Assembly (NCBI GenBank): GCA_001247695.2
Contig: LGRX02035200.1
Span: forward strand, 62,001 to 126,000
Origin: Cymbomonas tetramitiformis
Taxonomy: Eukaryota; Chlorophyta; Pyramimonadophyceae; Pyramimonadales; Pyramimonadaceae
Length of the DNA stretch: 64,000 bases
Direction: 5' to 3'
Below, piece after piece: positions 14,595 through 22,841 of the stretch. Each line of letters begins with the position of its first letter. Position 1 is the stretch's first letter. The position numbers were made by a program, and so were the translations under genes. The notes under the pieces are model-generated. The model saw only the letters and a list, made by a program, of their open reading frames with translations, had not been told where the DNA came from and ran no database searches.

Positions 14595-15526
14595 GGAGAA
14601 TGCCGCGCGCTCTAAACACGCACTGCGGAACCGACAACAGGTGGGTGTTGTGCCCGCGATCGCGTTCGGTCCATTGGAGGACCCTGAAGGATGGCTTGGT
14701 CGTCAATACACGGCTTACGAGAAGTCGCTCATGATGGGTCCCGAACCCATGTGTTCCAAGTACAACAGGTGAACATCGGCGGTGTCTTCTATCGCACTAG
14801 AGACGGGGACAAAGGGAAAGTGACAACCCAGTGTTTCGTCCGCGCATCCTTCCCCAAGGATGATGCCGATGCCGATGACGAGTGGGAGGACAGGTACGAC
14901 CTCAACCACCAGTTTGCATGCTTCTTTGCCTTTTCTTATATCTCTGCAACATACATGCAATACGTCCCCAACATACTAAGGATATGTTGTACGTATATTA
15001 CAAAAACATTGAACATTTCGTGCGCAGGTATGGTATCATCAACGCCATTCTGCGGGTTACCATTGGCGGTGTGCTCTACACTTTTTTAAAGTGTGATTGG
15101 CTACCCGTGCCCACGGAAGCTCAGATCGCAAGCTTCAAGCTGAAGAACTCCATCCTCGGCGTGGACAAGGTGTCCAAGGCTTACTACACCTTCAACCCAT
15201 GGGACACCTCCAAGTACACTATGGACAACCGAGAGCCCTACCTACTGGCCAATCAAGTCCAAGCGCAAGTAGTGATAGTCAAACACCCCTGCATGGATTC
15301 AGCGGTGATACTTGATACGAGCGACCGCAATATGGAGAAACTTGCACTCGTTGATAGGCCCGTAGGTAGTGATGGTCACTTTGACACATGCGGGAAGTGT
15401 AGAGTCGGTGGCGAGCTCCTTCTGTGTGAGAGGGCAGGCTGCAAAGAGGCTATGCACGTGCGATGCGCAGGGCTCACCGACATCCCCACTGGAATGTGGT
15501 ACTGCAGAAAGTGTGATGACGCATAG
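14595..15526 (+). CDS. DUF4216-like transposon protein fused to a PHD finger (copy A)
   Basis: Exon 14595-14893 encodes a block with WLGRQYTAYEKSLMMG. Exon 15028-15526 encodes RYGIINAILRVTIGGVLYTF, then REPYLLANQVQAQVVIVKHP, the layout of DUF4216, a C-terminal domain of CACTA transposases. It finishes with a PHD zinc finger: CGKC, then CERAGC, H-RC and CRKC supply the Cys4-His-Cys3 set. PHD fingers usually read histone H3 tails, so chromatin targeting is a reasonable inference. Between SKYNR and VNIGG (about 14765-14772) the frame is off by one base compared with the related copy at 18957-19848, which suggests a 1-bp deletion. Intron 14894-15027 starts GTACGA and ends CGCAG. An upstream exon probably exists, because 14595 follows an acceptor (ATCACAG). 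Confidence 0.6.
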
Positions 15527-15539
15527 TAGTGCCTCTGTA

Positions 15540-16250
15540 CACATTTGATATACCTGTAATATACCAGATACGTATTGCAGCTATATTGTAAGTATTATGC
15601 AATATGTGAGCAGCAGGGGGGTCTTACCCCTTTACCCCTGCAGTCATGTGTTGCATAATTCACTCTGATTGTAGACATATTGCACATGTATTAAAGATAT
15701 TCTGCATGAGTGAATGTTTCAATATGTGTTCAACACATATATTGCAAACGTGTTGAATGATTCATCTGATTGTAGACATATTGCACATGTATTGAACGAT
15801 TCCTTATGCGTGAATGTTTCAACATGTGTTCAACACATGTTCAATACGTGTGTTGCAGGCGGTTGCAGACATATTGAACACCCCTCCAATCGTTTTGCCT
15901 TATTTCAATACATCGGGGCCCCAATTCATAAAGCCCCCCAGAACCGACTTCTGCGATACGCGTCCAAATGCCGTGAAAACTTGTCCCCATAACGCTAGAC
16001 CCTTCCTTAGATGATACCAAGTGCTAGTGGGTGAGTCTGACACCATTTGGGTGCCCATGCTAGCATACTCATTTTCGCTGTGTCCAGGCTGATCGCGGTT
16101 CAATAGTTTGGCCAATATGTTACACGTACGTATTGGAATGTCCGGATATTAGCATACCGTCTTCAATATGCCTCCAATATGCCTCCAATACGTGTTCAAC
16201 ACGTGTATTGGACCCGTCTAGAAACGTAGGGTGTCAGTAAGTCAAATAAA
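15540..16250. repeat. Clusters of TTGAACACGTGT/CAATACGTG-type palindromic words
   Basis: Two diverged units of about 105 bp (about 15660-15760 and 15765-15865) share GATTGTAGACATATTGCACA and TTCAA(C/T)ATGTGTTCAACACA. Near 16187-16211 CAATACGTGTTCAA is followed by its near reverse complement. Related words (CTAAG(A/G)ATATGTTG) also occur at 14568-14582 and inside the intron at 14974-14988. No gene is seen. Confidence 0.6.
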
Positions 16251-17080
16251 TACTTCATTTGATGCTTCAATCGGCATGGTGTACCGTGTCATCAAACTTT
16301 ATGACTGCTATACACAGATGCTGGAACTTTTCATAAGATTTTCAAGCTTCCAAATGTAAAATCAAATGATGTAAATCAATTTATGGCAGCTGTATGAAGA
16401 ATGAATGAATTTATACTCCTTCCTCCCCCTTTAAAAAGAGGTGTATCAAACCAATCAGATGGTGATGGAGAATGCCATTCAATTATCATGTTATGTGAAA
16501 AACGGTTTGATAGAAAATCAGACAGAGATTACTCATCGAATCAAGTGCTTTCGAGGTAACAATGTCAATATGAACACCGTTTCTCTCTACGTCATACCGG
16601 CAACATGCCTGACGCTTTTGAATGTGTCGAATGCCAGATGATGTCAAATGCCAATGTCAATTCACTATGATTCAATATGCAGTTTTTGGGTTGCAGCCCA
16701 CATACATTGTTGGTCCAGGATCACAATAGAGTGCCTAACTTTAGACAATGTTTCTGGATAATGATTGTCATAATGAACACCGAAACTAGTGATGGTACCG
16801 AAGCTCACTTTGGTATGGAAGCTAATAGAGAGTCAATCAAGAATATGAATATCATTTCTCTACTGTCGTAAAAGGCTCACATATTTAGTGTCTGTAATGA
16901 CAACAACTTACTACGAGCTGTATTTCCGTACTTGATGAATGGCTGGTATGTCATTTCATTGTGACTAGAACATGGCATCGCCTAGTGATATGTGTATATA
17001 TGAATCTTATTCAGTACATGATCACTTATCTCAATGGTACCCATTTTATTTTTGGGCATACACTATTCAGAATGAACTGT
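16251..17080. other. AT-rich spacer, no gene seen
   Basis: About 65% A+T, low-complexity stretches rich in ATGTCAAT words. No ORF has coding character and no repeat longer than a few dozen bases was noticed. Confidence 0.5.
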
Positions 17081-17091
17081 GCTTGGAAACC

Positions 17092-17172
17092 ATCTGTAGA
17101 TTGCGGGTTCGATTTCCCGCCATGGCTTTTTCCAAGTTTTGTGGCCTAATGGACAAGGCGACAAATTTCTAA
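17092..17172 (+). tRNA. Circularly permuted tRNA-Arg(UCU)-like locus, 3' half before 5' half
   Basis: The 3' half comes first: TCTGT (17093-17097, anticodon-stem 3' strand), variable loop AGATT, T stem GCGGG/CCCGC (17103-17107/17116-17120) and acceptor 3' strand CATGGCT (17121-17127). After about 7 bases the 5' half follows: acceptor 5' strand AGTTTTG (17135-17141), then TGGCCTAATGGACAAGGCG, the exact D-arm style of eukaryotic tRNA-Arg, anticodon stem ACAAA and loop TTTCTAA with anticodon TCT. The acceptor strands pair 6 of 7 (two G-U) and the anticodon stem 4 of 5. Flanking TGGAA (17084-17088) and TTCCA (17176-17180) can pair, as in the precursor helix of permuted tRNAs. The T loop has 8 nt instead of 7. 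These defects mean it may be a decaying gene. Confidence 0.6.
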
Positions 17173-17180
17173 ACATTCCA

Positions 17181-18290
17181 GAATGAGCTTTCAAAGATTT
17201 ATAATTCCTCAATGAGGAATGCGTGTCTTATGTGCCAAAATGATATGAAACCACAAGTATGATGTCAATCTATATGTGGATGGTTTATACCATTGTATGC
17301 TATTCCACAAATAAGTAGTGATGTCAGAACAAAACTTTGGACAATTGCAACTCAGTACAAACCCGAGTGCATTCAAGTCCACTTGTATGCTCAGAATCTG
17401 AATCTAATGTACTTTCTATATGCACAGAATAGAATATATTTTCTATGTGATTCTGGATTCAGGAACTAGAGTCAATGAAAAACCCTCTCCTATTTCAGAC
17501 GATGAAACCTTTATTCCCTTAGGTGCAATACCTTATCTTAAGGAATAGTCATTTTCAATACAAGTTTCAATCGATTTTCTCAAATCTGTCACCTTTATTT
17601 ATGATGATCAGACTGGTCAATTTTACAGCATAACCCACTTCCCCTTGTTGAAGGAGATGACTCCTGTCATAGGGCGGTATGTTGGCTGTTTTCATATGAC
17701 AGATGGAATACATGAGTGGCTCGGCAACTTTGGAGAATTTCGGGATAAATCTCTTGAATTGGCCGACAATGCCCTAGAATGGCCGAAGCGATGACTTGCC
17801 ATCTTTAGCCATGCGGCGTAGAGGCTGCTTGCCAACAGTTGGGCCATAGGTTGGATAGCTATGTTTAGCTATGTTGGAGGCTGAATAGCCATGACTGCAC
17901 GGACTCTGTCTTCCATGATGGATAGACCTCTGAGATGTGGTGTCCGATAAGTCAATACATCTAACAACAACTCAACCTTAAAAGGTCTGATGAAGAGCCG
18001 ATGATCTCTGCTGCACTGTATTTTTTTGATGTGCACTACTGAAATGCCTCGTGATATAATAATCTCACAGAATAGGCATTGTTCAATGGCGGTATGATCA
18101 GATATGTAATGGTCAATGAAGACAGGATGACCGGTATGGCTTATTCAGCAGGCATGACTACCTCAAAGAGATGCCAATACACGGATGCATTTCAATACAT
18201 AAGGGCAATAGACTTATTATGTAGCCTTCAAAGGCAGCTTGCATTTATGCTGCATTGGTCAGGTCGGTGGCTTTCCCTACAAATTTAGGA
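17181..18290. other. AT-rich spacer, no gene seen
   Basis: No convincing coding frame. Scattered TATAGCCATG-like repeats occur near 17820-17890 (TTGGCCATAGG, TAGCTATGTTTAGC). Otherwise unremarkable. Confidence 0.45.
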
Positions 18291-18900
18291 CACCTGTACC
18301 CGGCATGTACCCAGCATGTACCCGGCATGTACTTGGACAACGTACATATGTACCTGTCCACTCCCCACTTGGGGCCCAAAACTCAGTGAAAATCCGAGTT
18401 GTAAAAAAGTGCAATATTTTCACATATATGTCAAGGCCATAAGTGACTAAGACATCCTTGACAAGTTTCGATGTAAACAAATGAGTTATTCCTTCAGAAA
18501 TGGACATCCGGAAAACAGGACTGGCGTGTACCTACGTGTACCTACATGTACCCCGTCGACGGGCACACACTTCCAGAACGGTGCATGCGGGGTGCATGTG
18601 TACGCAATCGAGTGCGTACACGTGCACCCGGCATGCACCGGGCGGGTACATGTAGATACATGCCGGGTACATGGTCCCGCGTACGCATGCACTCAACGTG
18701 TACCATGCAGTACATGCTGAGTACATGCTGGGTACATGGTGTCTCGTACACATGTACCGGTCATGTACCAAATGGCAGACTAGTGCATGTTGGGTACATG
18801 TGAACGCACCCCCTTAGTACGACGTGGGTACATAGTAACCCCACGCGCGTTATATATGGCGTGCACGTGTACCGACAATGTACCATGTGTGAATTTAACA
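18291..18900. repeat. Cluster 1 of the GTACATG-type palindromic motif
   Basis: Dozens of words such as GTACATG, CATGTAC, GTACACG and GGTACATGT occur, often as GTACATGTGTACC...GGCATGTACC. They are spaced 10-30 bp apart in both orientations. All six frames read as MYPACT/CTRHVP-like peptides, which is the translation of the motif and not protein evidence. The cluster flanks the 3' end of the minus-strand DUF4216-like gene. Confidence 0.85.
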
Positions 18901-18956: not shown

Positions 18957-19848
18957 TCATGCCTCATCGTCACTGGGATTCTCATCTCGGACAATCTGCT
19001 CAAAGAAGTCGGCTAGCGGATCCAAGACCACCGAGGTTTCCATGCAAGGATGCTTTCGAATCACCACTTGAGAAGCAATCTCCTCGGCAAGCACAAACGG
19101 TTCTTTTCGATCCAATTCAGTGGCCGGATTCTCTGGGTCCAAGACGTAGAAACACTTTGAAACACTTTCCGCTCCTATGATGGAATGCCTCGCACGCAAA
19201 GCGGCCGTTAAAGCTTTAGTTGGCTTCTTGAGCCACGAAACCTTGACAAACACGTACGGTCTTCCTCCAAGCTCCACTCGATAGATGTCATCCACCCGGC
19301 CAAACCTGGAATACAAGCATCACCCCCTCCCGACATCAAGCACGTATGCACCATCACATCGATATCAAATCAGTCTCGCACCGCTTGGCTCGTGCATGTT
19401 CGGCCCGCACACTACTGCACACGGGTACATGTGCACCCAAGACGTACCCAGTATGAAGACATGACGGGTACACATGCACCCACGCGTTCCCATGTTAGGT
19501 GTGTATGTACCGAGGGTGTACGGGTACTGGTGGTACATGATTGTGCACTCACCGGTCTGTTTTTGCCTTTTCCTTTGTTCGCTCGCGACCTTTCGTCCTC
19601 ACCCTCTCGACGTAAAAAGATCGGAAGTAGCATTGCAATGTCTTGAACTTTTTGTCCATGGATGCGGTCCGGAACTTCATCGTACCCACTTGCACTCGAT
19701 TGAACTTGCGGCATCGAGGAGGGCAACCTTCGAGTAGAGCGCGCTCATACTCTGTGTATTGTCTTCCCAACCATGGGGTGGGGTCCAGGTCGATGTGCAT
19801 CTTGTACTTGGCGGTACCCGGTGCGCCTTTGACCTGAAGGTGCGCCGT
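18957..19848 (-). CDS. DUF4216-like transposon protein without PHD finger (copy B)
   Basis: Two exons (19848-19553 and 19315-18957) join in frame. The first includes PTPWLGRQYTEYERALLEG and the second RFGRVDDIYRVELGGRPYVF and KEPFVLAEEIASQVVIRKHP. These match copy A (14595-15526) block by block: WLGRQYT-YE, IGGVLY/LGGRPY and QVVI-KHPCM are shared. Copy A has a PHD finger after this point; here the protein stops in an acidic tail (NPSDDEA). The intron 19316-19552 (GTGAGT donor) is full of the GTACATG motif. The first visible exon follows a TTTGCAG acceptor, so 5' exons are missing or unrecognised. The function in CACTA elements is unknown. Confidence 0.55.
19390..19540. repeat. GTACATG-motif cluster inside an intron
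   Basis: At least seven GTAC-centred words (CGGGTACATGTGCACC, CGGGTACACATGCACC, TGGTACATG) lie within the single intron of copy B. The adjoining exons contain none. Confidence 0.75.
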
Positions 19849-22772: not shown

Positions 22773-22841
22773 GGAGTGAACGGGAAGATTCCCGCGAGTC
22801 CTTTGCACTCGAAATAGTTGGTTCAAATCCAACTCACTCCA
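22773..22841 (+). tRNA. tRNA-like cloverleaf with aberrant D arm (pseudo-tRNA candidate)
   Basis: The acceptor strands GGAGTGA (22773-22779) and TCACTCC (22834-22840) pair perfectly. A CGGGA/TCCCG hairpin takes the D-arm place with only a 4-nt loop. CGAGT/ACTCG (22795-22799/22807-22811) closes a 7-nt loop CCTTTGC. GTTGG/CCAAC (22817-22821/22829-22833) closes TTCAAAT, giving a good B box (GGTTCAAATCC). U8 and U33 are missing and the D loop lacks GG, so a working nuclear tRNA is doubtful. It could be a tRNA-derived pseudogene, an organellar or viral type, or part of a SINE. TTTT follows at about 22849. Confidence 0.4.

Follow-up and report, generated by a model that had tools for sequence, protein, structure and literature searches.

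Permuted tRNA-Arg(UCU) in the window

Our analysis showed that positions 17092-17172 (+) of the window, by which we mean the whole 64,000-nt stretch of Cymbomonas tetramitiformis DNA that was analysed, hold a tRNA-Arg(UCU) whose halves stand in permuted order, the 3′ half preceding the 5′ half. The permuted covariance model described below and structure counts placed the 3′ half at 17092-17127 (+), where it comprises A38, the 3′ strand of the anticodon stem, the variable loop, the T arm, and the 3′ strand of the acceptor. The structure counts gave an intervening sequence of 7 nt, TTTTCCA, at 17128-17134 (+). It is followed by the 5′ half at 17135-17172 (+), which was delimited with ARAGORN, the same covariance model, and structure counts. 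This half consists of the acceptor 5′ strand, the D arm with an A-box-like TGGCCTAATGG, and the anticodon arm with the anticodon TCT at 17168-17170 (+). The run TTTTT at 17127-17131 (+), noted in the sequence and again in the genome census, lies between the halves and resembles a Pol III terminator. The 3′ half is preceded by a leader (17079-17092 (+)) which, when aligned with L068, a locus elsewhere in the genome, proved to lack the A-box part known from there. Within the leader, TTGGAAA at 17083-17089 (+) is able to pair 7/7 with the anticodon loop, and the 3-nt bulge CCA follows at 17090-17092. The trailer occupies 17173-17189 (+), and no run of four T (T4) was found within 40 nt after the 5′ half.

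The halves meet at position 37/38 of the tRNA, and the anticodon loop reads TTTCTAA. The T stem (17103-17107 with 17116-17120) has 5/5 pairs and a loop of 8 nt; the acceptor (CATGGCT, 17121-17127, with AGTTTTG, 17135-17141) is paired at 6/7 positions, two of them G-U; the anticodon stem (TCTGT, 17093-17097, with ACAAA, 17161-17165) is paired at 4/5; and the D stem at 4/4. An earlier note on this DNA had proposed a permuted tRNA-Arg(UCU) with its 3′ half first and with exactly these counts for the acceptor, anticodon stem, and T stem. All these stems were present as counted, and the proposed order was borne out by the pairings, by ARAGORN, which called tRNA-Arg(tct) once the halves were rejoined, and by the covariance score given below. 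When the window was left unmodified, ARAGORN made no call at the permuted locus, and a scan of the window against Rfam at the gathering threshold gave zero matches. The sole ARAGORN call in the unmodified window was an unrelated tRNA-Lys(ttt)-like sequence at 22773-22841 (+), which scored 41.7 bits with RF00005 in a local permissive scan and was missed in the whole-window gathering scan. It has no U33 and, by eye, an atypical D arm, and is perhaps a relic.

For the permuted covariance model, R1, 19 tRNAs of viral contigs were cut at 37/38 and their halves were swapped; R2 is the matching model in normal order. R1 gave 46.0 bits at 17092-17171, with an E-value, rough as all R1 E-values are, of 6e-15, and the runner-up in the 64 kb reached 11.8 bits. 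The covariance check suggested in the earlier note, in which a score below background would count against the permuted fold, was thus passed. To put 46.0 bits on a scale, R2 gives at least this score to 93 of 172 normal-order matches, the 19 training sequences included. A strict-base scan for permuted cloverleaves found 19 pairs at 17092-17172 and no other locus in the window, and the same scan of 40 first-order Markov-random windows on both strands yielded 13 pairs at best.

As a control, we found that ordinary tRNAs lying next to each other obtain R1 scores too, reaching 48.2 bits at phage loci, so the absence of outer halves is essential to the permuted argument. No outer tRNA halves were detectable near the window copy. 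The likeness of its flanks to the missing halves was not above that of shuffled sequences, the scores being reached by 550 and 839 of 1,000 shuffles. R2 run unfiltered over 16000-18300 matched each half alone, with 9.5 and 9.4 bits, and its only higher match was 13.0 bits on the opposite strand, at 17366-17425. A tandem pair of ordinary tRNA genes at this locus was rejected on these grounds. The earlier note had also taken TGGAA/TTCCA in the flanks for the outer helix of a permuted precursor. This part was not significant, since an equally good 5-bp helix was found at 213 of 2,061 local placements, and we dropped it as evidence for a precursor clamp.

The order of T arm, acceptor, and D arm is also that of the tRNA-mimic module of YrlA-type Y RNAs (Rfam RF02553), and a weak match to this family spans 17072-17189 (23.6 bits, E 0.011). 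This score is far below the gathering score of 69, however, and the core alone has 15.8 bits, compared with 40.6 bits, likewise under the gathering score, for a YrlA-like sequence of viral origin. With the permuted tRNA model, in which the anticodon arm is represented, the locus reaches 46.0 bits; an anticodon arm closes the molecule here, and it is full in the complete units described below. It is extremely unlikely that the locus encodes a Y RNA of this type.

The viral YrlA-like tRNA mimic (L018:5055-5119 (+), on a viral contig) lies near a large tRNA cluster. On another viral contig, L011:6656-6735 (-) contains a T arm, perfectly matched acceptor strands TGTCCCG/CGGGACA, and a D arm in permuted order. 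It adjoins more than 20 tRNA genes, scores 32.6 bits with R1 and 21.6 with YrlA, and has no matching anticodon arm by eye. A viral source was searched for with several patterns. A B-box-then-A-box pattern matched 13 viral contigs, in 12 of which ARAGORN called tRNA genes around the match, and a T-arm/acceptor pattern matched 7 viral loci, of which 3 had Ser or Leu tRNAs called at the matching position and 4 had no tRNA there. Exact patterns closer to the window tRNA gave 0 viral loci, and a permuted Arg pattern gave 0 matches in prokaryote genomes.

The carrying repeat and the decay of the window copy

The permuted tRNA lies within 16231-18274 (+), a fragment of a dispersed AT-rich repeat, and it is one of 81 matches of this repeat in the census described below. 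We took 21 other copies with 1.5-kb flanks and compared them with the window by blastn; identity was about 89-97% over long alignments, which start at 16231 in 15 and stop at 18274 in 11 of the 21 copies. Past these two positions, flanking sequence is common to other copies, indicating that the repeat is longer than the fragment in the window. Comparison of seven longer stretches put its length above 5 kb. Direct repeats of about 0.56 kb, 96.6% alike, lie about 5.9 kb apart in one of the copies (L062, reverse-complemented). Stop-to-stop frames of at least 110 aa were compared among 10 copies. No long protein frames were shared among them, and the recurring frames were short, up to about 160 aa; for example, one of 161 aa in L061 was found at 91% in L060, 82% in L063, and 48% in L069.

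The window's repeat has relatives in L068, L069, and L071, with mostly 75-90% identity extending over kilobases; we regard L068 and L071 as older relatives. These two retain nearly complete permuted tRNAs, scoring 58.7 and 50.9 bits with R1, respectively. Two frames with a similar domain stand on either side of the repeat in the window, at 14879-15526 (+) and 18957-19316 (-); the Cys-rich end of the former resembles, by eye, what we take to be a PHD finger.

In tRNA-derived SINEs, tRNA sequence is multiplied over the genome in repeats, with the tRNA part at the 5′ end acting as promoter. The present repeat is similar to them in multiplying a tRNA sequence over the genome, but the tRNA it carries is permuted and is embedded in a far longer element rather than standing at the 5′ end as a promoter.

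The earlier note had suspected decay from the 8-nt T loop and changes in the acceptor. Both were confirmed, and several further signs were found. The T5 run at 17127-17131 separates the halves and the next T4 past the 5′ half occurs only at 17439, whereas a working gene should have no T run between its halves and one after the 5′ half. There is a U-U mismatch in the acceptor and an A-C mismatch in the anticodon stem. The leader lacks its A-box part, and no TATA[AT] was found in the 50 nt upstream. The leader sequence CTTGGAAA is an exact inverted match to TTTCCAAG of the intervening region (both within 17082-17136), a quality of match reached at 2 of 2,061 local and 110 of 21,266 window placements, and this produces a competing hairpin between the leader and the intervening sequence. 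The hairpin has -31.8 kcal/mol and the best permuted fold -19.8 kcal/mol, a gap of 12 kcal/mol; the imposed cloverleaf has -12.9 kcal/mol. The precursor of the window copy is thus not predicted to fold as a permuted cloverleaf.

A splice motif must be set beside these features. Green algal permuted tRNAs have been described as carrying the motif hBH at 37/38, a 3-nt bulge with a 4-bp helix, and permuted genes with a 'no H' motif are listed too (PMC3978253). The window copy conforms to hBH at 37/38, as its leader and anticodon loop form 7/7 pairs across the bulge CCA; this helix register was found at 3 of 2,400 local and 60 of 63,989 window placements, the window copy itself counted in. If the window locus were a working permuted tRNA-Arg(UCU) gene, spliced via a circle despite its changes, both this 7-bp helix with its 3-nt bulge and the 46.0 bits would agree with it. 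The terminator arrangement, the competing hairpin, and the reduced leader with no TATA[AT] upstream of it all argue the other way, as do the dispersed copies, 79 of 81 of which have T4 or longer between the halves, and we consider a working gene at this locus very unlikely. The 7-bp helix itself may be a property of the decayed copy, because the complete relatives have no full helix and base 32 is mispaired in 8/8 of those tested. As splice-motif support for the permuted reading it is weakened, since the complete units share only part of it. The window copy is probably a dead gene, and it would not be expressed because of the T5 between its halves, the absent leader A box, the 8-nt T loop, the mismatches, and the competing hairpin. 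The reading of the earlier note as a whole, a permuted tRNA-Arg(UCU) with signs of decay, is supported.

Complete permuted units elsewhere in the genome

Proteins encoded in the window have their closest named relatives in Cymbomonas tetramitiformis, at 40-46% for relatives of one large protein and at 87-89% over 21-33% of another frame, which points to Cymbomonas or a close pyramimonadalean. An exact search of 851.7 Mb in 25,745 contigs of this genome with the pattern TGGCCTAATGGANAAGGCG, six free bases, and TTCTAA gave 99 matches, and a reversed control pattern gave 0. Because the pattern was derived from the window's own 5′ half, this census favours relatives of the window copy. The surroundings of all 99 matches were read. 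Of these, 81 had an anticodon stem other than ACAGA and were classed as window-type, and the other 18 as intact-type. The 3′ half was found upstream of the 5′ half in 97 of the 99 matches and within 60 nt downstream of it in none. Chance or an assembly artefact has negligible probability in view of this same arrangement over many contigs and of the E-value of 6e-15. The near-identical clusters on C5211 and repeats on C25144 could partly be assembly repeats, and the artefact has no other support.

We counted a match as structurally complete if it had a 5/5 T stem with a 7-nt loop, at least 6/7 acceptor pairs, and at least 4/5 anticodon-stem pairs. This applied to 17 of the 18 intact-type and 0 of the 81 window-type matches. 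T4 or longer stood before the 5′ acceptor strand in 1/18 and 79/81 of them, respectively. The intact-type exception was L069, in which only the 5′ half is kept. The complete units were located in the C5211 clusters, the C25144 repeat array, and the repeat relatives L068 and L071. The earlier note had suggested looking for an intact ordinary copy of the same halves as a mark of an inert pseudogene; complete copies with the same halves do exist, but all those found are permuted themselves.

The stretches of C5211 that were read contain four clusters with three or four units each, 13 in all, scoring 56.9-61.0 bits with R1; four of the 13, with the loop CTTCTAT, fall outside the pattern of the 99 matches. 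C25144 holds six units of 59.4-59.9 bits (R1), about 1.2 kb apart. The complete units have 6-7/7 acceptor pairs, 4-5/5 anticodon-stem pairs, a 5/5 T stem with a 7-nt loop, and a full anticodon arm whose loop is CTTCTAA in most. Their intervening sequences are 6-10 nt long, e.g. TCAATATC, TCAATC, TCAATTTC, and TCTCCCAG. In the complete units the acceptor strand is followed by U, a residue that is unusual for tRNA-Arg at this place.

Units 2 and 3 of C5211 have 7/7 acceptor and 5/5 anticodon-stem pairs. A T6 or T5 run stands 6-8 nt past their 5′ half, and TATA-like boxes lie within 50 nt upstream (TATAA in unit 2, TATAT in unit 3). With 16-nt flanks, the minimum-energy fold of their linear precursor contains the whole permuted cloverleaf, while that of unit 1, C25144, and L068 differs from it. 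In L068 and L071 the T run stands 15 nt past the 5′ half, and in unit 4 it stands 30 nt past it; unit 1 and C25144 have none within 40 nt, and the first T4 run of the C25144 units comes only about 300 nt downstream. One C5211 unit has TTTT between its halves.

On C25144, each of the six repeats of about 1.2 kb (L067, 17000-26990) contains an ordinary tRNA with the anticodon CTT (77.2 bits) in addition to the permuted tRNA-Arg(UCU). TTTT follows the CTT tRNA, which lies 77 nt upstream of the permuted unit in five of the six repeats, and given this spacing it is conceivable that the two are co-transcribed despite the TTTT. Upstream of the CTT tRNA, a 3′ half was seen in L028 and L067; L028 also has a whole tRNA-like sequence, by eye a tRNA with an insert in the anticodon loop.

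The permuted order might also be a relic: tandem tRNA-Arg(UCU) genes with introns, in normal order, could have decayed until their inner halves remained, and nothing would ever have been spliced in permuted form. One model named for permuted genes is tandem duplication followed by loss of the outer halves (PMC3978253). On C5211, a normal-order reading of 48.8 bits, with some 30 nt inserted, is obtained when the 5′ half of unit 1 is combined with the 3′ half of unit 2, and one of 33.7-36.2 bits when the 3′ half of unit 1 is combined with its tRNA-like leader. On C25144, however, the normal-order model run around the six units gave no tRNA-Arg reading, only the ordinary tRNA with anticodon CTT, so the units there are complete without adjacent Arg halves. 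A 3′ half upstream of the 5′ half with no ordinary outer halves was found for the complete units, most cleanly on this contig. The first C5211 cluster has the order 3′-5′-3′-5′-3′-5′, and the T runs of units 2 and 3 stand behind the 5′ half, both of which argue against tandem decay. So does a compensatory change within the permuted units: pair 2:71 is A-U in units 2-4 and C25144 and G-C in unit 1, L068, and L071. Full pairing in all 17 complete matches, against 0/81 decayed ones, points in the same direction. A direct repeat flanks the window locus, as tandem decay would have it, but 177 of 1,722 local placements and 550 of 4,000 across the window reach the same quality, and it was rejected as a target-site duplication or intron remnant; the outer halves of the window copy were not above shuffles. 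The strict splice helix is absent from the complete units, a point in favour of tandem decay. The strict hBH motif (a 4-bp helix from base 32 with a 3-nt bulge) was found in 0/8 complete units tested, base 32 being mispaired in all. In the hBH register their longest run is 3-5 pairs and bases 33-35 are paired with GAA in 8/8; in units 2-4 and C25144, about 16% of placements do equally well by this pairing alone. All things considered, we regard tandem decay as quite unlikely.

A search for normal-order genes with the pattern TTCTAAN{12,14}GGTTCRANYCC gave 10 genome matches. One was called tRNA-Arg(tct) by ARAGORN; it lies on contig C1, has 27.9 bits with R2, and differs in its body from the permuted units. 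The locus (L127, C1 around 241186) is a dense cluster of ordinary tRNAs including this normal-order tRNA-Arg(tct), with CCA not encoded. As a guess, C1 is viral or organellar, and the cluster is perhaps the endogenous giant virus reported from Cymbomonas. Six other matches (L128, L130, L131, L132, L134, and L135) are copies of a different repeat and contain a weak tRNA-like stretch in normal order (TTCTAAGCGT.CAGTCGTGGGTTCGAATCC; 19.2-23.0 bits with R2), and ARAGORN found nothing at the remaining three. No nuclear normal-order tRNA-Arg(UCU) was found with this pattern, which covers intronless genes with these letters. A genome-wide RF00005 search gave 30,467 candidates, 63 of which received a score.

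In this alga, then, tRNA-Arg(UCU) seems to be encoded in permuted form, as has been reported for Ostreococcus tauri. We consider it most likely that the window locus is a degenerate passenger permuted tRNA-Arg(UCU) in a dispersed repeat and that the living genes are complete units elsewhere. The repeat would have taken up the permuted gene, or donated it, and then spread decayed copies, and the living genes would be complete permuted units, above all those of the C5211 clusters. Their transcript would run in the order leader, 3′ half, intervening sequence, 5′ half, and trailer, and end at the T5/T6 run just past the 5′ half. Gene order, pairing, repeat membership, the complete units, and the T runs in C5211 units 2 and 3 were observed directly; the processing path of the complete units would be that given in a review of algal permuted tRNAs (PMC3978253).

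Comparison with known permuted tRNA genes and a shared module

Permuted tRNA genes are rare: 34 in seven species are given in the review by Soma (PMC3978253), and later papers have added a few. Permuted tRNAs are present in Auxenochlorella, where the first set from tRNAscan-SE is reported to have been incomplete, the permuted genes being detected afterwards (PMC12633428), and in some chlorarachniophyte nucleomorphs (PMC4494063). In the Cymbomonas annotation of 2023, tRNAs were predicted with tRNAscan-SE; the published assembly has 914.3 Mb (PMC10675990). We found no permuted tRNA from Pyramimonadophyceae, and none inside a repeat, in the open-access PMC papers that were searched.

O. tauri has a permuted tRNA-Arg(TCT) of type II with an intervening sequence of 11 bp (Table 1, PMC3978253). 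The Cymbomonas genes are similar to it in that the 3′ half comes before the 5′ half, the junction by position is 37/38, the anticodon is TCT, and the intervening sequence is short (6-10 nt in the complete units, 11 in O. tauri). They differ in their many copies, which form clusters and a repeat array in a very large genome, in the 81 decayed repeat matches, and presumably in the algal class. Green algal cases have hBH motifs (PMC3978253), whereas the complete units here have a 3- to 5-bp run without base 32. As in C. merolae, the halves are in permuted order, no terminator stands between them in 17/18 intact-type matches, two C5211 units have a T run behind the 5′ half, and TATA-like boxes lie upstream of units 2 and 3. 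Unlike C. merolae, the window copy has no TATA box in the 50 nt upstream, and the junction is at 37/38 here but varies over the molecule in C. merolae (PMC3978253).

With this genome, one more algal class would join the list, together with a single permuted gene in many copies. The decaying repeat copies and the complete clusters represent the same gene in two states, so that the origin, spread, and continued transcription of permuted tRNA genes would become directly testable.

L068 and C5211 unit 1 have a 122-bp block in common, with 99% identity and unrelated flanks. The block comprises a 37-nt leader resembling a tRNA 5′ half and the permuted gene in full, its end falling near tRNA position 37. 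The leader of L068 holds about 28 nt with GGATGTGTAGCGCAGTTGGTTA, and most of this leader is missing from the window copy. An A-box-like TAGCGCAGTTGG in the block leader stands upstream of the B-box-like T arm, so the permuted gene would regain the Pol III promoter order that is normally absent from permuted genes. It is possible, if rather doubtful, that a mobile repeat and the host's permuted tRNA genes share and trade this module. The block may have formed at the RNA level, if a 5′ half of foreign origin was attached at the splice junction to the 3′ half of the Arg tRNA and the product was then reverse-copied; reverse transcription of rearranged pre-tRNAs is one proposed origin of permuted tRNA genes (PMC3978253).
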